Part shown: in pieces, positions 32,115 through 41,250 of the stretch
Numbering within the stretch: the first letter of the stretch is position 1
Layout of the letters: the number at the start of each line of letters is the position of its first letter
Notes under the pieces: model-generated
The model's database searches: none
Told to the model about the DNA's origin: nothing
What the model saw: only the letters and a program-made list of their open reading frames with translations
DNA from: Nitrosospira sp. 56-18
GTDB lineage: Bacteria > Pseudomonadota > Gammaproteobacteria > Burkholderiales > Nitrosomonadaceae
Assembly (NCBI GenBank): GCA_001899235.1
Contig: MKVR01000050.1
Location: 22,871 to 86,870 of the forward strand
DNA length: 64,000 bases
Reading direction: 5' to 3'
Made by a program: the position numbers and the translations under genes

Positions 32115-32600
32115 TCAGCTCTGCTTCTTTGACATCGGGATGATGCTGCATTTTGGTCCCGAGTATTCAAAAGTGACGGGGTCGAGCGGAGTTCGCGCAT
32201 AATCGTCGCGCATCAATGCCGCTGTTTCCCCCAGGGCAAGTTCCTGCAAGCGGCAGCGCATATTCAGTACTCCGTCGCCTGATTCAAAAACGCCACAGGC
32301 ACCCGGCATTTCGTCGCCCATCGGGTCGATCTCCGAAGCTGCGGCCGCTCCCACGTCGCTCATTACCGCTACTGGCAGATGGGGAAAACGCCGCCTTGCC
32401 TCCCTGATCCACTGCAACAGGCTGGCCTGCTGGGCGCACCCATACACATTGCCATCGACGAGGACCATATCGTAGGCCTCCAGGTCCGACCCCGGAAAAC
32501 TATCCAGCGATTTCCGCTCCAGCCTGTGCTTGGATTTCTCAAGCAGCAGATACAATAATCCGCGCGGATTTTGCCCGCCTCCAACGAGAAGGATATTCAT
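32115..32600 (-). CDS. Receiver-like protein translationally coupled to luxI, function unknown
   Basis: The 161-residue protein opens MNILLVGGGQNP and shows an alternating pattern like a response-regulator receiver (YDMVLVDGN near 47-55, PVAVMSDVG near 78-86). It lacks the N-terminal acidic pair and the conserved Lys of true receivers, and has no output domain. Its ATG overlaps the luxI TGA as ATGA, so it should be co-translated with the AHL synthase. It might be a degenerate receiver acting as a partner or regulator of LuxI, but no function can be assigned. It is not a LuxR: no autoinducer-binding domain or C-terminal HTH is seen. Confidence 0.7.
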   Translation of the reverse strand: MNILLVGGGQNPRGLLYLLLEKSKHRLERKSLDSFPGSDLEAYDMVLVDGNVYGCAQQASLLQWIREARRRFPHLPVAVMSDVGAAAASEIDPMGDEMPGACGVFESGDGVLNMRCRLQELALGETAALMRDDYARTPLDPVTFEYSGPKCSIIPMSKKQS

Positions 32601-33211
32601 GCTGCCTTCCTTTGCGCATTTTCCGGAAGCGTGCCGAACAAGGCAAACTCGGTGATGGCGTCGATTTCTATATAGCAAGCCACGGTCAGTACCCGGCCTA
32701 TCCTGATGGGCGCGCCCAGTCTGGAAAGATTTACGCCGAGCTTGCGTATCAACCTCTCGACCGCCACTGTAGTCACGGTCACATATCGCTTTATTCCGTT
32801 ATGCCGGGCGAAAAGAAACAGCGTCTCCATCATTTTGACGGGGATATCGCTGAAGCCGAACCCTGCGCTCTGGTATTTCGGAACCGTCACCGCAAAGCGG
32901 CTGAGTTCCCATACGTCTGATTGCTGGGGTGCGGGCTGCCCGTGCAATAATTGCGGAAATGTATCGCGCAGCATGTTTGGACCGGTCGTCGGCAGCAGCC
33001 GCCAGCAACCGAGCACTTCATCCTCTTCTCCCTTCGCCAGGACATATACCGGATTGGCATGGTCGAACTCATCGTGCTCCATTCCATTATCCGTGGTAAC
33101 TTCCCAGCCCAGCCGATCGTGAAAAACTTCGTGCCTCAGCCGATACATTCCTAAAACCGTGCGCTGATCGAGAGATCCGTTTCCATGTTGCGCCAGCATG
33201 ATTTGTCCCAT
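32597..33211 (-). CDS. Acyl-homoserine-lactone synthase, LuxI family
   Basis: Makes an N-acyl-homoserine lactone signal from SAM and acyl-ACP or acyl-CoA. The 204-residue protein keeps the nine residues typical of LuxI enzymes: Arg26, Phe30, Trp36, Asp47, Asp50, Arg71, Phe85, Glu102 and Arg105. The ATG at 33211 has AGGA(CGG) at good distance; GTG at 33220 is an alternative. A lux-box-like palindrome lies about 65-85 bases upstream. No luxR is present in the window. Nitrosospira multiformis is known to carry a functional LuxI (NmuI) making long-chain AHLs, and this is probably an orthologue. Confidence 0.93.
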   Translation of the reverse strand: MGQIMLAQHGNGSLDQRTVLGMYRLRHEVFHDRLGWEVTTDNGMEHDEFDHANPVYVLAKGEEDEVLGCWRLLPTTGPNMLRDTFPQLLHGQPAPQQSDVWELSRFAVTVPKYQSAGFGFSDIPVKMMETLFLFARHNGIKRYVTVTTVAVERLIRKLGVNLSRLGAPIRIGRVLTVACYIEIDAITEFALFGTLPENAQRKAA

Positions 33212-33274
33212 TTTTTGCACCGTCCTGGTTGGTTAATGACGATGCTATGAAACAACTTATGGGCGTCCCCGAAT

Positions 33275-33294
33275 AGCTGTAAAATCTTACAGGA
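33275..33294. promoter_or_regulatory. lux-box-like operator upstream of luxI
   Basis: AGCTGTAAAATCTTACAGGA contains the perfect palindrome CTGTAA-AATC-TTACAG. It matches the classic Vibrio fischeri lux box (ACCTGTAGGATCGTACAGGT) at 15 of 20 positions. Its centre is about 73 bases from the luxI ATG, as expected for a LuxR-type activator site at -42 of a promoter. Binding by a LuxR encoded elsewhere is inferred. Confidence 0.75.
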
Positions 33295-33733: not shown

Positions 33734-35923
33734 TTAGTTGAAATAGAAACGGATGGAACCGAAGGCGCTGAGCGGGTTGCCGGGCAGCGCGCCGGCAAAT
33801 GTGGGGGTGGTATAGTAGGTTTTGTCGGTAAGGTTTCTTACGTTGACCGCAACCTCCATTCTTTTTACCCGGTACGAGACAGCCGCATCGTAAACCACGT
33901 ATGACGGCACTCGCAACAGATTCAAGGTATCGGCGAAACTGTCGCCCTTGTAGGTGACGCCGAAGCCGAACATCAAACCCTGGGCAAGGCCGGTCTGTAT
34001 CTGGTAGGTGGCCCATAAATTGCCCATATTCGTAGCGACCCCTACCGGGCGGTTTCCTGCAATGCTCCTGAATTCTCCAGGAGCAAAGAGAATGTTATTC
34101 CGCGCAAGTGCTTTCGATAACGTTTCCGGATCCATCCACACACCGTTTCCGATAATGCTGAGTCCGGCAAAGGGGCGAACAGCCAAGGTGACTTCCACTC
34201 CGCGGGAACGGTCCTTTCCATCCTGCGTTTGAAGATTGGTTGCGGCCGGATTCAGGTTGATAAAATAATTGTTGCGGCTGGTCTGGAACAGCGCCACATT
34301 CAGGTCGACCTTGCCTTCCACCAATGTCGTTTTCGCCCCCACCTCGATCTGGTCGGAGGTTTCGGGCGCCGTCGCCACGGCGGTGGGTTCCGTCGACAGA
34401 TTGATGAACGCGCCCGTGCTGTAGCCGGCATAAAAGGATAGATATTTGGTAGGCTGGTAAACCCCCCCCGTCGAGTAGGTAGTCAATGAGCGGGAGCGTA
34501 CGATTTCCCGGTATCCCACCCCGGACTGAAAACCCTTGTCGCTCCATTCGACGAGATCGTTGCGAATGCCCAGACGAAGCTTGAACTGCTCGCTCAGATC
34601 GATCTGGTCTTGAGCATAGAAGGAAAACTGGTCGCTGTTGATCCGCCGATCGAATATTTGACCCTTCGAAGTGACGCCAGGACTGTTCAATGAAGTTTCC
34701 AGGCCAACTGGATTGAGAAGACTTATGTTGGGGAGCGAAAAATCATTACGCACGGTGGTGATATCCGTATTTTTATATTCGAATCCTCCCAGGAAGGTAT
34801 GCTTGATCGGGCCGGTGTACTTCTTCCAGATGAATTCGTTCTGGAACGTGGCAAATCCCTGGTGATCCGTTTGAAAGCGTACGTCACGTCCCGTAATCAT
34901 GCCTGCCGCGTTAGCCTGGTTACCGCCTCCATTCCGGACCAGATTGAGCAAGCGTCCATCGTAGGTGAATGCGGTACGCATATTCAGGTCCGCCGAGATC
35001 GCCCAGTTATGCACGGCGGTGACGCGGTTGATGGTATTGCTGGTGTTATTAAAGGGAGTGTAATAGCGGTTTTCGCGGGGAACCACCAGCTGTGAATTGA
35101 TATTAAAAAGCGTTCCATAATTGTCCGGCCTGATATGGATATCGCGATGATCGAAGTCTACCAGCAGTGTTTTGTCATCGGCCAGGCGCCACAACAGGGT
35201 AGGTGAAATCTCGAAGACATTGCGCTTGAGCCCGCGGAATCCGTCCGCATGCTCCAGATCGGCGATGACGCGCCCCGCGAAGTTCTGCCCGATGGGTCCG
35301 GTCACATCCGCATATCCGTTGCGCGTGCCGAAACTGCCGAGCATGGTTCCTGCAGACGCGGCAAAACCACTCCTCGGTTGCCTGGTTATCATGTTGATGC
35401 TGCCGCCGGGCCCGGCCGACCCGAATAACGCGGAACCCGGCCCTTTCAGCACCTCGATGCGCTCGACGTCATACATGGTGCGGTAGTAGCCGTTTTGCGG
35501 CGACGTTCCATCCGGCATGTCGTCGCGAAAAAAACTCAATGGCAGTCCGCGCGAGGTGTAATTGTTCGCAAACCCATAGCCGCCGCCCATCAGGGGTTGA
35601 ACGCTGCTGACGTTGCGCATGGCGTCATCCATGTTTATCACACCCTGTTCCTTCAGAAGGGACGCCGGCACGACCGCCACGCTGGCGGGAACATCGCGCA
35701 ACGGCGTATCTGTCTTGGTGCCGGTGCGGGCCACGTCCTCGAGCGTGCCCGGCCGCACTCGCCCGGTGCTCACCTTTATTTCCGGAAGCTCAGCCCCTTT
35801 TTCCTGATCCTTGGCGAGCGCATCCTGGGCTACCGCGTTTGATGAACTCCATACCCATGCGCCCAGTATGGCTATACGGACGATACCGCCCCTTCCCCTT
35901 TTGAAACCGAATAAATATTTCAT
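33734..35923 (-). CDS. TonB-dependent siderophore receptor
   Basis: Outer-membrane beta-barrel that imports ferric siderophores. About 729 residues from MKYLFGFKRG. A signal peptide ends near NAVAQ, the plug domain has TDTPLRDVPASVAVVPASLL and RIEVLKGPGSALFGSAGPGGSINMITR, and a barrel closes with Phe/Asn (SIRFYFN). There is no N-terminal signalling (STN) domain, so no FecIR-type control is expected. It is last in a minus-strand run with PepSY, DUF4198, multicopper oxidase and bfd, which points to iron or copper supply. The frame extends 20 codons upstream, but the chosen ATG gives a proper signal peptide. Confidence 0.93.
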   Translation of the reverse strand: MKYLFGFKRGRGGIVRIAILGAWVWSSSNAVAQDALAKDQEKGAELPEIKVSTGRVRPGTLEDVARTGTKTDTPLRDVPASVAVVPASLLKEQGVINMDDAMRNVSSVQPLMGGGYGFANNYTSRGLPLSFFRDDMPDGTSPQNGYYRTMYDVERIEVLKGPGSALFGSAGPGGSINMITRQPRSGFAASAGTMLGSFGTRNGYADVTGPIGQNFAGRVIADLEHADGFRGLKRNVFEISPTLLWRLADDKTLLVDFDHRDIHIRPDNYGTLFNINSQLVVPRENRYYTPFNNTSNTINRVTAVHNWAISADLNMRTAFTYDGRLLNLVRNGGGNQANAAGMITGRDVRFQTDHQGFATFQNEFIWKKYTGPIKHTFLGGFEYKNTDITTVRNDFSLPNISLLNPVGLETSLNSPGVTSKGQIFDRRINSDQFSFYAQDQIDLSEQFKLRLGIRNDLVEWSDKGFQSGVGYREIVRSRSLTTYSTGGVYQPTKYLSFYAGYSTGAFINLSTEPTAVATAPETSDQIEVGAKTTLVEGKVDLNVALFQTSRNNYFINLNPAATNLQTQDGKDRSRGVEVTLAVRPFAGLSIIGNGVWMDPETLSKALARNNILFAPGEFRSIAGNRPVGVATNMGNLWATYQIQTGLAQGLMFGFGVTYKGDSFADTLNLLRVPSYVVYDAAVSYRVKRMEVAVNVRNLTDKTYYTTPTFAGALPGNPLSAFGSIRFYFN

Positions 35924-36052
35924 CGTAGTACTCTCTGTTTTTGTAATTGTTTGCAGAAGCGCACACGCAAGCGCGCAGGCCATCCGCTCAGAAACGTCTT
36001 GCAGGCATCTTTAACGAAGCGCTTCCTTGATGGTGCTCCCCATATCGGGGCG

Positions 36053-36766
36053 TCATACAATCGAACTCAACGACAGCACCAGCACCCCGGTGAGCGTGGT
36101 GCCGATCAGGCCCGCGGCCAGAAGGCGCGGACCATGCAGACGGCTCCACAGCAGGGTGCCCGTTATGGCGAGCACGAGCAGGGCGCCGGCCAGGGTATCA
36201 GTAAGCAATATCCAGGCATTGGACATCCCGCTGCCTTTATGAAAACTGACCAGTGTTGCCCACACATTGGCTTCTTTCTGCTCGACATGCGTAGCCGCAT
36301 CTCCCTTCCAGTACTCCGCATTCACGCTCAAATTGGGAGTAGTCAGCGTGATGCGCCAGTTCTCCGGCTGCTCGATCCGGCCACCTCCCCAGGGAGCGGG
36401 GCCGCCCGGTTTTTTCTGAATGCGGGATTTGGCATCGGGCAACTTGAATTCGGCACGCAGCCAGGCTTCCAGCGCTTCCGGCGATTCGAGGCTTGCCCCG
36501 GGTGGAGTAAGCACTTGCCGTGTTTCCTCGTGCTTCGCCAGCGGGATCTTCATTTCGTTGCGGTGATTGAGCAGAATTCCGGTTACCCCGAACAGCAGCC
36601 CCATGGCCGCGCCCCACAATCCCATCCATGCGTGCGTCCGGCGCAGCCACACGAGGAACCGGCCTCGTTTCATGCCCTGCGATAAAAAGAGATATCCCCT
36701 GGGCTCCGCAGCCCGTGGACCGCCGTCCCGATTCCCGGCGGCAGGTGTGTCGTGGGCTATGCTCAT
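36053..36766 (-). CDS. PepSY-associated transmembrane protein
   Basis: The 237-residue inner-membrane protein has an N-terminal helix after a basic stretch (WLRRTHAWMGLWGAAMGLLF...GILLNHR), a periplasmic PepSY-like middle, and two C-terminal helices (TDTLAGALLVLAITGTLLW and a last hydrophobic segment). His residues in the first helix and loop (RTHAW, FHKGSG) fit the family of PepSY-TM proteins, some of which reduce iron bound to siderophores. Its start overlaps the DUF4198 gene stop by four bases. Confidence 0.85.
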   Translation of the reverse strand: MSIAHDTPAAGNRDGGPRAAEPRGYLFLSQGMKRGRFLVWLRRTHAWMGLWGAAMGLLFGVTGILLNHRNEMKIPLAKHEETRQVLTPPGASLESPEALEAWLRAEFKLPDAKSRIQKKPGGPAPWGGGRIEQPENWRITLTTPNLSVNAEYWKGDAATHVEQKEANVWATLVSFHKGSGMSNAWILLTDTLAGALLVLAITGTLLWSRLHGPRLLAAGLIGTTLTGVLVLSLSSIV

Positions 36767-37410
36767 TTGTAGAAACTGGCCGTCACTTTGTGGCTTTCGA
36801 TGGTATAAGGCTTGCCCTCGAATACCCCGGGGCTATTCAACTCATGCTTGGCCTCGATGACATAGAGACCGGGTTCCAGCAGCGAATAGGCCGTCTCGCC
36901 CTTTTCGTCTGTTTTGAAATGCTTTTCCCACCCGTTCGGCGCAATGACGATAATTTCAGTTTTTGCCAGCGGCTTTCCCATGAAGCTCAAGCGCAGCAAA
37001 TTGCCGGTATTCTCTATGTCGAGCGGCAGGCTGCCCCCGCTGCCGAAACGCGCGTACAGAAAGCGCCGGTACACCGCGCCGGGATTGTCCGCGCGCGGGT
37101 CCCGGATGCGCTGCTTGAGCGCCCGCACCAGTATCGTGCCGCCATCGGGTATGGCAAAGTAATTATCCAGGCGAGTGGCGGCGGCTGGCTTTTCGGCACC
37201 TGCGGAATCGATCACCGTCACCGCCGGTTCGATGATATCGTCTAGCCTGCCAGGCGAGGTTTCACGCAGATTTTCGCTATATTCGCCAAAATAGAGCCTG
37301 GCAGAAGCATTGTCCTGCTCCAGCCATAGCGCGTGGGCGCTTGCATTGAAGCTGAACAGCAGGCACGCAAGGCCGGCAATGGCGGCAGAATAGTTTTCCG
37401 GGAACTTCAT
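36763..37410 (-). CDS. DUF4198 periplasmic protein
   Basis: The 215-residue exported protein has a signal peptide ending SFNASA, followed at once by HALWLEQDN, the His-containing mature N-terminus typical of DUF4198/NikM-like metal-uptake accessory proteins. A C-terminal Ig-like domain (GEKGETAYSLLEPGLYVIEAKHE-type segment) follows. It overlaps the PepSY gene. The mature N-terminal His could bind copper or nickel. The role in metal delivery is inferred from family and neighbours. Confidence 0.82.
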   Translation of the reverse strand: MKFPENYSAAIAGLACLLFSFNASAHALWLEQDNASARLYFGEYSENLRETSPGRLDDIIEPAVTVIDSAGAEKPAAATRLDNYFAIPDGGTILVRALKQRIRDPRADNPGAVYRRFLYARFGSGGSLPLDIENTGNLLRLSFMGKPLAKTEIIVIAPNGWEKHFKTDEKGETAYSLLEPGLYVIEAKHELNSPGVFEGKPYTIESHKVTASFYK

Positions 37411-37446
37411 CAGATACTTTCCATTTTCCGTATGTTTTAAAAAGTT

Positions 37447-38430
37447 TCAGGGGAGCACATGCCAGCGGGTCGACATGCCCGCCATCATGTGGTCGTCCAC
37501 ATGACAATGCAGCAACCAGTGTCCGGGGGAACGCGGAACCATGTCCACCGAGGTCATGCTTGCCGGCATAACTTCGACGACGTCGGTTCGGCGCCCATGG
37601 TCAAGCACTGTCTGCCCATGCCAGTGCACCGTATGGTTATCGGTTTCATTCCCAAGCGCCACCACATGCCAGCGGACGCGTTTTCCCAGATGGGTTTTAT
37701 AGCCATCCAGATTGCCAAAGATGCGGCCGTTGATGGTGTGCTTCATCCCGCTTTCCTTGCCCTCTTCTTCATTGAAGATCATGAACAGCGATATGAATTC
37801 CTGATCAACGTCGCGTGGGGCCGGATCAGAGCTTGAGCGTTCCATGCCTTTGCGCGTGACGATGATGGTCCCCACCAGACCGAGATTGGGCTCTTCGTCT
37901 TCCATGACATGGGAGTGGTAGAGCCAGACAATGGAGGAGGGATCGGCGGGGCCCGGACCAGCGTCCTCATCCGCCACCCAGGTATAGGTATAGGACTTGT
38001 TGGGGGGCACGCTTGCTCCCGGCCCCGGCCCATCCGCGCCCTCGTTATTCTTGTCATAGAACAGTCCATGCGGATGCATCGAAAGCGGACGATCGGTCTT
38101 GTTCAGGAAATGGACCTTGACCGTGTCGCCGACCGCGGCCCGAAGCTGCGGGCCCAGGATGCCCATCCACTCGGGCTGGGGTAAAGGCGCGTTATATCGG
38201 CCATCCTTGTAGGCGACATAACGGTATTTCTGGTAAACCAGGGTTTCCCCCCATACCCCCAGCCCCGCTTCGGGCTTGATCCGGTTCTTGCCGGAGGGGG
38301 CATAATTCCAGGGGGTCTTTTCCGCGGCTATCCAGTATTCCCTCACCGCCGCATGGACCTGAGCCGATGCCCAGAAAGCCACCGCAAGGGCAATGGACGC
38401 GGCAATCCTGCCCGCGCTAGCCAGTTTCAT
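37447..38430 (-). CDS. Two-domain multicopper oxidase
   Basis: Periplasmic copper oxidase of about 327 residues with a signal peptide ending SAQVHA. Two cupredoxin domains are present rather than the three of laccases. Copper motifs are HPHG and HSH in the first domain and HWHG and the HCHVDDHMMAGM segment (T1 Cys, His, Met) in the second. A two-domain enzyme of this kind is structurally known from Nitrosomonas europaea. It probably forms a trimer with interdomain trinuclear sites and oxidises metal ions or phenols. The start has GGAG six bases upstream. Position next to bfd and a TonB receptor favours a ferroxidase or copper role. Confidence 0.88.
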   Translation of the reverse strand: MKLASAGRIAASIALAVAFWASAQVHAAVREYWIAAEKTPWNYAPSGKNRIKPEAGLGVWGETLVYQKYRYVAYKDGRYNAPLPQPEWMGILGPQLRAAVGDTVKVHFLNKTDRPLSMHPHGLFYDKNNEGADGPGPGASVPPNKSYTYTWVADEDAGPGPADPSSIVWLYHSHVMEDEEPNLGLVGTIIVTRKGMERSSSDPAPRDVDQEFISLFMIFNEEEGKESGMKHTINGRIFGNLDGYKTHLGKRVRWHVVALGNETDNHTVHWHGQTVLDHGRRTDVVEVMPASMTSVDMVPRSPGHWLLHCHVDDHMMAGMSTRWHVLP

Positions 38431-38482
38431 GCTCACTCCACTTCGGCCCATGCTCGTGGGCATATCCACGGCGTAGAGATGT

Positions 38483-38677
38483 CTATGCGACATGCCGGGA
38501 TGCCGCATTTTTTTGCATGAGGGCCTGCTCCAGAACTTCCTTGGCATGGCAGGCGCATATGCCGCACTGCCCGCTCACGCCCAGACCGCCCTTCAAGTCG
38601 CGCATCCGGTCCGCGCCCCTGTGGACGGCTTCCCGTATTGCGGTATCGGTTACACCTTTGCAGACACAAATGTACAT
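38483..38677 (-). CDS. bfd: Bacterioferritin-associated ferredoxin (Bfd-like)
   Basis: The 64-residue [2Fe-2S] protein has ligands Cys4, Cys6, Cys38 and Cys41 (C-X1-C-X31-C-X2-C), the exact BFD fold spacing. Bfd reduces the iron core of bacterioferritin to release Fe(II), and is typically induced by iron starvation. A Fur-box-like site lies about 225 bases upstream. It is the first gene of the metal cluster; the ferritin-like gene at 30.8 kb may be its substrate. Confidence 0.92.
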   Translation of the reverse strand: MYICVCKGVTDTAIREAVHRGADRMRDLKGGLGVSGQCGICACHAKEVLEQALMQKNAASRHVA

Positions 38678-38899
38678 ATCACTGTTTCCTGTTCACTTAT
38701 TCACTTGTTTGGCCAGGGCAAGCTTATCGTTGCAAACATGTTGCGGACATGCCGCAGGCGATGTTCAACCTGGTGTCGAGTGACCTCGTCACCCTGCGAA
38801 AACAAAGCGCTGTCATGGATACAGCTGCTCCTGCCAATCCTGCTTCCAGCAGTAATTTCGAAAATACGCCGCTATCCATCGGCTCTCTCAATATACAAT

Positions 38900-38918
38900 A
38901 CTAATGAGAATGATTCGT
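38900..38918. promoter_or_regulatory. Fur-box-like site upstream of bfd
   Basis: ACTAATGAGAATGATTCGT matches the 19-base Fur consensus GATAATGATAATCATTATC at 12 positions, including the core AATGAGAATGATT. It lies in an AT-rich stretch that could hold the bfd promoter (minus-strand TTACGA and TATATT are near). Iron-dependent repression of the bfd-to-TonB cluster is inferred. Confidence 0.55.
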
Positions 38919-39298
38919 AATTATATTATTTCTCAGGAAAAATGCAATCTTCCCATGAAAAAATTCATGAATGGTAAATATCCCGGATGTCGCAAATGTC
39001 GGTAATGAAAACGTGAACATCGCAGGGCTACCCGGTCTCCGTTTGCCCCATCGGGTCGCGAGCGCTTGGAATGGGCCAGTACTGCTGCTTCCAGATAGAT
39101 GGCCATTCCCGCGACTCCGAGGCCACCAACATAGTAGAATGCCCATCAGACAGACGATCGGGGCTCAAGCTCGCGTTTGTCATGCTGATCCGGCCGCAAG
39201 CCCGCTTTTGAACGGCTGCAGGATAAAAAGAACGCGGGCTGAAATTGAAGGATTTCGTAGATGCCCCGCACTCCCCACATGTTTTCTCGCACATCGAA
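38919..39298. other. Intergenic region between the metal cluster and the glycan locus
   Basis: About 380 bases between divergent units. No gene is supported. It should hold the promoter of the ABC exporter, but I see no clear -35/-10 pair. Confidence 0.45.
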
Positions 39299-40081
39299 AT
39301 GTTTGCAACCGCACTACGGGATCTGAGGTCAAGCCTCGCAGCATGGCGCTTATGGTGCCTCCTGGGCTGGCTGGAGATACGGCAGCGCTATGCCCGCTCC
39401 ACTTTGGGGCCCTTCTGGCTGACCATATCGATGGGAGTGATCGTCGGCTCGATCGGCGTGGTTTATGGAGCACTGTTCAATCAGAATATCGCCGACTACT
39501 TGCCTATGATGGGCATAGGCCTCGTTTTCTGGGGCCTGCTTACCAGCATCATCAATGAAAGCTGCATGGCCTATATCAATTCCGCGGGATATATCCGCCA
39601 GACTGCGACGCCCAAGCTGCTGTTCATGCTGCAGGCAGGATGGCGCAACTTTCTCATTTTCCTGCATAACTTTTTGATAGTCATACTGTTGCTCGCCGTC
39701 TTCGGCTCGAAGGACTGGTCAACCGTTTCTCTTTTTTTCCCCGGACTGGTACTCTTCATTCTCAACGCACTGTGGATCGGGCAGGTTGCGGGCATCATCT
39801 CGGCCCGGTTTCGCGATCTTCCCCAGATTATTTCCGCCATGCTGCAGATGGCGTTTTATGTGACGCCCATCCTCTTTCAGCCCGGAATGCTCAAGGATCA
39901 TCGCTGGATAATCGACTACAATCCGTTTGCGCATCTGCTCGAACTGGTTCGAGGTCCCCTGGTTGGCGCCGCGCCCGACACGCTGACCTGGACGGTGGGA
40001 ATCGTCATGGCGGTTGCGGGCTGGCTTCTGGCTCTGGCGTTGACTGAACGCTATCTCAAGCGCATTCCCTACTGGGTTTGA
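39299..40081 (+). CDS. ABC-2 type polysaccharide exporter permease (Wzm-like)
   Basis: Inner-membrane half of a two-gene ABC exporter for O-antigen or capsule. About 260 residues with six hydrophobic helices. The N-terminal LEIRQRYARSTLGPFWLTI is the family signature, and the end ERYLKRIPYWV is typical. It ends four bases before the ATPase gene. The start is uncertain: ATG at 39299 has a weak ribosome site, and a TTG 54 bases upstream is in frame. It opens the glycan locus. Confidence 0.9.
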   Translation: MFATALRDLRSSLAAWRLWCLLGWLEIRQRYARSTLGPFWLTISMGVIVGSIGVVYGALFNQNIADYLPMMGIGLVFWGLLTSIINESCMAYINSAGYIRQTATPKLLFMLQAGWRNFLIFLHNFLIVILLLAVFGSKDWSTVSLFFPGLVLFILNALWIGQVAGIISARFRDLPQIISAMLQMAFYVTPILFQPGMLKDHRWIIDYNPFAHLLELVRGPLVGAAPDTLTWTVGIVMAVAGWLLALALTERYLKRIPYWV

Positions 40082-40085
40082 CCGG

Positions 40086-40841
40086 ATGAGCGTCATTCGC
40101 CTGCATAATGTTTGTGTCGATCTGCCGGTATTTGAACTGAGCGGGCGTTCCCTGAAAATGCATCTTGCCCGCCTGGGAAGGCGCGGCCGCATCGGGAAGG
40201 ATAACGATGGCGTGGTAATCGTCCGGGCGCTGGATGACCTCACCCTGACCTTGCAGGAAGGCGACCGGGTGGGCCTGATCGGCCGCAATGGCGCGGGGAA
40301 GAGTACGCTGCTGCGGGTACTGGCAGGTATTTACGCTCCCACGGCAGGGCAGATATATAGCCGCGGCCGCATTGTGCCATTGCTCGATATCGCCCTGGGT
40401 ATGGATGAACTTTCGACCGGCCGCCAGAATTTGCGCCTTCGCGGTTTGCTCCTGGGAATGAGCAATGCCGAAATCAGGCGCAAGATAGAGGAAATCGCCG
40501 CCTTCACGGAACTCGGCGACCATCTGGATTTGCCGCTGCGGACTTATTCGAGCGGCATGCGGCTGAGGCTGGCCTTCGCGGTTTCCACCGCGGTTGATGC
40601 GGATATACTTTTACTGGACGAGGTGATCGGCGTAGGCGATGCATCATTCATGAAAAAGGCTGAAGGACGGATGCTCGACCTGCAAAGCCGCGCAAAAATC
40701 GTGGTGCTCGCTTCCCACAGTGATACCGTCATTCACCAGATGTGCAACAAGGCACTCTGGATGGACCGCGGCCGGATCCGTGAATTTGGCCCGATGGATG
40801 AGGTTGCCGCCCGGTATGCCGCGGCACAATCCGCCGGGTGA
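40086..40841 (+). CDS. Polysaccharide ABC exporter ATPase (Wzt-like, no C-terminal sugar-binding domain)
   Basis: Energises glycan export with the Wzm-like permease. The 251-residue protein has Walker A GRNGAGKS at about 66-73, the ABC signature as TYSSGMRLRL near 152, Walker B DILLLDEV near 172, and the H-loop SHSD. It stops after the nucleotide-binding domain: the carbohydrate-recognition domain of E. coli O8/O9a Wzt is absent. Export should therefore not depend on recognising a terminal cap. Confidence 0.92.
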   Translation: MSVIRLHNVCVDLPVFELSGRSLKMHLARLGRRGRIGKDNDGVVIVRALDDLTLTLQEGDRVGLIGRNGAGKSTLLRVLAGIYAPTAGQIYSRGRIVPLLDIALGMDELSTGRQNLRLRGLLLGMSNAEIRRKIEEIAAFTELGDHLDLPLRTYSSGMRLRLAFAVSTAVDADILLLDEVIGVGDASFMKKAEGRMLDLQSRAKIVVLASHSDTVIHQMCNKALWMDRGRIREFGPMDEVAARYAAAQSAG

Positions 40842-41250
40842 TCTGCCTCTTTTCGTCACGCGGGAACCTCTGCTGTCCGCGAGTTTGCCGGTCCCCGGCC
40901 AGATTTACGAATGCGGCAGCATCTTCTTCAGGTATACTTCGCAAAAAATCCGCATTACAAACGATAACCCGGCCATCAGGCACGTGACTGCTATAAAAAA
41001 GCATAAGGGATCGTATTCCACTTACCGAACAATCTTTTAGCGTTCGATAGCAAGCTGTTTTCTTTTTTCCCCTCTCGAAAGCCGAGTGGCACAAAACTTC
41101 CCTGATATGTAACGTGGGATGTTTTTTACAACAATAAATAAGAACAGGCAAACTGTAACTCAAACATCTGTAAAAGATATTGGGTTAATCGCTGAAGTAT
41201 TCCGCAGTGTTAATACGCCCCTATTGATCCGGTGAGCAAACAGTATAAAC
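40842..41250. other. AT-rich non-coding stretch downstream of wzt
   Basis: About 410 bases with no supported gene and no obvious terminator. Composition becomes noticeably AT-richer than the exporter genes, marking the left edge of the presumed acquired block. Confidence 0.45.

Follow-up and report, generated by a model that had tools for sequence, protein, structure and literature searches.

A conserved lux box upstream of luxI and similar boxes at dispersed promoters in Nitrosospira

The palindrome at positions 33275-33294 of the window, i.e., the whole stretch of 64,000 nt of Nitrosospira sp. 56-18 DNA analysed here, very probably serves this soil ammonia oxidiser as a genuine regulatory site for switching on luxI. 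We are confident that it represents a functional lux box at which LuxR and an acyl-homoserine lactone (AHL) would activate luxI and the adjoining gene X, and the same receptor would very probably also activate a set of dispersed promoters. The sequences, their conservation and spacing, and the occurrence of one LuxR in the genome were observed directly. An earlier note on this DNA had proposed autoinduction via a LuxR-type protein encoded elsewhere; this reading is supported, with binding and autoinduction remaining predictions. AHL synthesis in Nitrosospira and LuxI/LuxR in Nitrotoga are already known, and the value of the present data lies in the list of target promoters. In the literature searched, neither a report of the Nitrosospira box, the split luxR-luxI pair, gene X, or the regulon (parts of which may be in print) nor a paper naming what the AHL signal controls in Nitrosospira was found. 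The remark that quorum sensing is little mapped in this organism could not be maintained, since an AHL synthase of N. multiformis has been published (Gao 2014, as cited in an excerpt of PMC5767232).

Positions 33275-33294 read AGCTGTAAAATCTTACAGGA, corresponding to TCCTGTAAGATTTTACAGCT on the minus strand, which encodes luxI, and include CTGTAA-AATC-TTACAG, a perfect 6-4-6 palindrome. On either strand 15 of the 20 positions match the V. fischeri lux box, and no other place in the window reaches a match of at least 15 positions (0.215 expected from dinucleotide shuffles). Both the match and the perfection of the palindrome had been described correctly before. Nevertheless, the latter was rejected as evidence, since perfect 6-4-6 palindromes are common in the window (25 compared to 19.6 +/- 4.2 in 200 shuffles). 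The box is situated approximately 65 nt upstream of the luxI start instead of the 73 nt given previously, because the start codon conserved throughout the genus is the ATG at 33211. A -10-like hexamer, TTTCAT (33247-33252, minus strand), begins 25 nt past the CAG of the box, a position that is kept in most luxI promoters of the family. Hence, the site comprises an approximately 20-bp CTG-N10-CAG dyad whose spacing to the -10 element of the synthase gene is fixed, as is characteristic of class II lux boxes. For V. fischeri the corresponding distance is 24 by our own count, and the similar spacing therefore points to a LuxR class II promoter layout.

The gene downstream of the box (32597-33211, minus strand) encodes a LuxI homologue of 204 aa, whose autoinducer synthase domain scores 131.4 bits against PF00765 (curated cut-off 24) and which is a putative AHL synthase. 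Alternative in-frame starts are present at 33199 (ATG) and 33220 (GTG). Compared to the NCBIfam TraI models, the product remains below the cut-offs (131.6 of 250 and 135.7 of 292 bits). Our search for luxI covered 61 genomes, i.e., the genome under study and 60 relatives, and yielded 26 genes in the Nitrosomonadaceae: one in each of the 23 Nitrosospira genomes, in case of G002 distributed over two frames, and one in three of the five genomes of the sister genus g2. All 26 genes are preceded by a lux box, which is present in Ca. Nitrotoga, too. Thus the conservation among orthologous luxI upstream regions, the absence of which the earlier note had named as a refutation, was found throughout the family. 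The box occurs as CTGTAAGATTTTACAG, CTGTAAGATTCTACAG, or CTGTAAGATCCTACAG in the 23 loci of the genus and as CTGTAAGATTTGACAG in g2. In the alignment of the luxI promoters, the box and a GTTGTTTCATAGC-like block remain recognisable amid flanking sequences that have mostly diverged; this conservation is not built in, because the loci were picked by luxI and not by the box. The hexamer is located at +25 from the CAG in 24 of the 26 promoters (TTTCAT in 17, TCTCAT in seven) and at +26 in the remaining two. Likewise, it is found at +25 in all ten loci of the g2/Nitrotoga type, a set that shares three contigs with the 26. No CTGTAAGAT-type box was seen at L027, L028, L030, and L031, four luxI loci that belong to other families and were left out of the alignment and of the hexamer count. 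In case of loci L022 and L024, the promoters are near-identical from the box downstream and wholly different upstream, as would result from a recombination break at the box. Some luxI promoters carry a second box-like palindrome, e.g., CTGTAATCCGCTACAG, 49 bp upstream of the main box (G021:C1:79159, L033:842, L012, and L013), which is absent from the promoter under study.

The statement of the earlier note that no luxR lies nearby holds for the window only, as luxR is located on the same contig at a distance of 34.4 kb from luxI. The homologue search in the whole genome (3.29 Mb, 54 contigs, 99.9% complete), for which a lack of LuxR had been named as refuting, returned one PF03472 match (C50:90486-90920, E 4.7e-43, 147 bits). 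It belongs to an intact, full-length protein of 249 aa (67556-68305 in window numbering, approximately 3.6 kb past the window end), which combines the autoinducer-binding domain with a C-terminal LuxR-type HTH and, among PDB entries, matches LasR best (E 1.6e-43, LasR residues 25-237). One PF03472 match over the cut-off occurs in 22 of the 23 genus genomes, the proteins being orthologous and 77-82% identical. The exception is G018, a 93% complete MAG in which no LuxR match was found and 13 boxes are present; in G017, a second PF03472 match remains below the cut-off. The ligand-contact residues W65, Y69, D78, T80, and W93 are invariant in all 24 aligned LuxR orthologues, the alignment excluding one truncated g1 copy (L079). 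They correspond to W60, Y64, D73, T75, and W88 of LasR.

In all 20 genus genomes with both genes on one contig, luxI and luxR point apart and are separated by 28.0-42.0 kb; in G002 and G017 they are situated on separate contigs. The protein encoded elsewhere, as claimed previously, was therefore found as a single PF03472 protein, albeit not scattered in the genome but confined to this distance genus-wide. The adjacency of luxR and luxI, which is usual (excerpt of PMC5080386) though not obligatory, is not realised here. In g2, however, both genes are arranged in tandem, 547-549 bp apart, in all three genomes having the pair, and the order luxR, box, luxI, X was observed in ten of ten g2/Nitrotoga-type loci (luxI taken from named records). 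Because the genes are contiguous in g2 and Nitrotoga and adjacency is usual elsewhere, the split in Nitrosospira is most simply explained as derived. Judged by these positions, the LuxR is the displaced partner of luxI and not an unrelated solo, because its distance to luxI stays within 28-42 kb in the whole genus and the two genes adjoin each other in related groups. An inversion was considered as the origin of the split; apart from luxR, luxI, and X, no convincing common genes were found between the flanks of the g2/Nitrotoga loci and the window, with one kinase match of 25% identity. An autoregulated luxR was considered and rejected, since no box-like site better than 11/16 occurs within 400 nt upstream of the gene in 30 loci (best site in the genome under study 9/16).

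The search for the palindrome in the whole genome, as suggested in the earlier note, was carried out with the pattern CTGTA-N6-TACAG and its reversed form as control. It revealed 13 sites in the genome under study compared to none for the control, and 221 compared to 32 in the 23 Nitrosospira genomes. Outside the genus no excess was observed, with 14 sites versus 19 for the control in 14 other genomes of the family, 22 versus 17 in six order-level genomes, and eight versus six in five Nitrotoga genomes, three of which have a luxI box missed by the strict pattern. The 221 sites of the genus are composed of the 23 luxI boxes, 178 sites from 22 genomes that were studied further (none of them from G002), and 20 sites outside this set. 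Of the latter, twelve apparently have an atypical core or are a second site next to luxI, seven apparently originate from the incomplete genomes G002 and G018, and one is unlisted.

For the 178 non-luxI sites, we searched both sides of the box, at a distance of exactly 25 nt, for a hexamer of the type T....AT that agrees with TATAAT in four or more positions. It was found at 130 sites, compared to a mean of 3.9 at other offsets (24-26 excluded; maximum 24 at offset 12), 19 sites at offset 24, and ten sites at offset 26. In the genome under study, eight of eleven non-luxI sites have the +25 hexamer, a count that excludes the 13th site (C52:129129). A gene family recurring beside boxes in three or more genomes adjoins 128 of the 178 sites, and boxes in orthologous promoters do not represent independent observations. 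Conservation of the non-luxI sites relative to their flanks is weak evidence, as the rows were chosen by containing the pattern, and the sites at ATP-grasp genes are conserved no better than their flanks. Our reading is based instead on the promoters picked by luxI, the spacing, and the site counts.

Where a box is flanked by two divergent genes, the hexamer consistently faces one of them. It faces a PAS histidine kinase in 21 of 21 cases and the divergent exbB in none of 15, a PEP-CTERM/exosortase-associated acyltransferase (TIGR03694, 285 bits, cut-off 112) in 11 of 12 and the divergent RNase R in none of 15, a TPR protein in nine of nine and the divergent EamA in none of ten, and a sigma-54 activator in seven of seven and the divergent IspD in none of six. 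Furthermore, it faces a tyrosinase (12/12) a hybrid histidine kinase (8/9), and a FadL-type porin (3/4), and to a partial extent CheW (11/16) and GGDEF/EAL proteins (3/6). Two candidate families, ATP-grasp (0/11) and glycosyltransferase (0/6), lack it. Consequently, RNase R, EamA, and IspD were rejected as targets, and so was exbB-exbD-tonB, which adjoins a site whose hexamer faces the PAS kinase. In the genome under study, further boxes are situated in front of a KpsM-like exporter and a GAF-GGDEF-EAL protein; both recur, each in two genomes. Targets were tabulated up to a distance of 500 nt, and the acyltransferase count may be too low, since three boxes (G005:C1:2774750, G009:C34:121185, and G019:C6:1011939) are situated approximately 0.8 kb from weak matches to PF00765 (LuxI-like acyltransferase). 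The list of candidate targets, for which amo, hao, and nirK were not specifically sought, points to functions other than ammonia oxidation itself, namely sensory kinases, a chemosensory operon, the export of polysaccharides, and an exosortase-associated acyltransferase.

In the proposed circuit, LuxR, encoded 34.4 kb away, would bind the AHL produced by LuxI and attach to the palindrome that immediately precedes the luxI promoter. As a class II activator, it would touch RNA polymerase at the neighbouring -10 element and thereby increase the expression of luxI together with gene X, resulting in a positive feedback loop. Via the same box and spacing, the receptor would very probably activate the PAS sensor kinase, the hybrid kinase, the CheW/CheR chemosensory operon, the exosortase-associated acyltransferase, the KpsM-like polysaccharide exporter, and the GGDEF/EAL protein in the genome under study, and the tyrosinase and the sigma-54 activator in relatives. 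Binding, AHL dependence, activation, and the affiliation of the dispersed boxes to the same receptor are what we infer here from the sequences. Box, fixed -10 spacing, and a single LuxR together result in a short list of target promoters, and these candidates can be tried in E. coli without growing a slow ammonia oxidiser.

Three other explanations were weighed against this circuit. That the luxI palindrome arose by chance and luxI is not autoregulated is the least probable of them and hardly credible: perfect 6-4-6 palindromes are indeed frequent in the window and the 15/20 match alone would be expected 0.2 times per window, but the box is kept in every one of the 26 luxI promoters of the family while most flanks diverge. 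Also very improbable is an identity of the palindromes with SOS boxes, which would turn the regulon into a DNA-damage regulon of LexA. The LexA operator consensus is CTGT-N8-ACAG, which the scan pattern fits as well, and some sites of the order-level relatives are SOS-like with alternating AT. However, the LexA DNA-binding domain (PF01726) has no match in the genome under study, although the same search succeeded for 10 out of 14 controls, E. coli among them; none of twelve sites of this genome (luxI and eleven others) lies beside a recognisable repair gene; the cores of the boxes are AAGATYTT-like instead of alternating AT; and the fixed distance to the -10 element suits an activator. With RecA present and no LexA DNA-binding domain found, this organism may lack a classical SOS repressor.

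Somewhat more weight, though still unlikely, is to be given to the possibility that the luxI box is real and the other boxes are read by another regulator, e.g., of the LuxR/FixJ type without an autoinducer-binding domain. Our regulator search covered PF03472 proteins, and HTH-only regulators of the same fold fall outside it. Moreover, Nitrotoga genomes with luxRI contain only 0-3 strict sites each, which is near the control, and luxRI therefore does not always bring along a regulon. On the other hand, box and -10 spacing are identical at luxI and at the other sites, and the enrichment of boxes is confined to the genus having this LuxR. We thus retain a single receptor for both luxI and the dispersed promoters as the preferred explanation.

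Among known systems, LuxI/LuxR of V. fischeri likewise has a 20-bp palindrome next to the -10 element in front of the AHL synthase gene, with 15 of 20 bases alike and a box to -10 distance within one base of that in Nitrosospira. In contrast to V. fischeri, luxR of Nitrosospira is situated 34.4 kb off and not divergently from luxI across the box, and luxI is followed by gene X instead of lux structural genes. The PDB entry matching the receptor best is LasR of P. aeruginosa, and LasR/LasI has dispersed target promoters like those predicted for the receptor, whereas in the Nitrosospira genome only one LuxR with an autoinducer-binding domain was found. The following comparison to NspI/NspR1 of Nitrospira, a nitrifier as well, draws on an excerpt of PMC8553950. 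Its box is located 81 bp upstream of luxI, is shared by a GGDEF/EAL gene, and was tried by reporter assay and EMSA; it differs in its sequence, ACCTGGCGGTTCCGCCAGGT, and in belonging to a different phylum (PMC8553950). Most predicted lux boxes of Nitrospira were silent with their LuxR in the reporter assay (PMC8553950). For Ca. Nitrotoga, the LuxI/LuxR pair of which has been published (excerpt of PMC6050957), LuxI and LuxR are 71-75% and 60-64% identical, respectively, to those of Nitrosospira (L047, L048, L050, L051, and L054). Gene X, box, and -10 spacing are the same in both, whereas in Ca. Nitrotoga luxR, box, luxI, and X form one uninterrupted cluster and strict boxes are not enriched elsewhere in the genome.

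Gene X (32115-32600, minus strand, 161 aa) shares four bases with the 3' end of luxI and directly follows it in all 26 loci of the family, in one of which it is cut by the contig end. Scanning the genomes of 84,980 species with peptide patterns yielded at least 80 matching stretches and, among the matches listed, at least 28 loci. All of these belong to Nitrosospira/Nitrosovibrio, Nitrosomonadaceae MAGs, or Ca. Nitrotoga, except for a single MAG with no label finer than Betaproteobacteria. No Pfam family exceeds its cut-off (best Flavodoxin_5, 14.6 of 27 bits), and no NCBIfam match was obtained. Profile searches yielded weak receiver matches (E 0.009-0.017; RpfC receiver 0.009, CheY 0.014), and according to our own reading of the alignment, the invariant Asp49 is located at the phospho-acceptor position of receivers. 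The structural model is poor (mean pLDDT 51.4), and Foldseek ranks receivers first, none of them at E 0.001 or better. As a best guess, these hints suggest a degenerate receiver domain.

It is tempting to speculate, although we consider it rather doubtful, that Nitrosospira split an original luxR-luxI-X unit, that the receptor came to govern approximately ten class II promoters throughout the genus, and that X tunes signal synthesis or reception. If so, the regulated functions would be sensing, surface polysaccharide, and protein sorting, and X would be a degenerate receiver-like protein translated with LuxI and common to ammonia oxidisers and Nitrotoga. Such an AHL circuit, having a third component of its own, would be without a described counterpart in the families searched.

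The luxI-X pair is common to ammonia-oxidising Nitrosospira and nitrite-oxidising Ca. Nitrotoga (32115-32600 of the window; loci L046-L054 and L058) and thereby links both partners of nitrification. The LuxI tree unites g2 with Nitrotoga (100/100) and keeps both apart from Nitrosospira, although g2 is assigned to the same family as Nitrosospira; either a transfer or an odd root may account for this. The region upstream of luxI (33734-41000) contains genes for a TonB-dependent siderophore receptor, a PepSY protein, a multicopper oxidase, and an ABC-2 polysaccharide-type exporter, and its part up to approximately 38.5 kb is again found next to luxI in 13-14 of the 17 genus loci searched.
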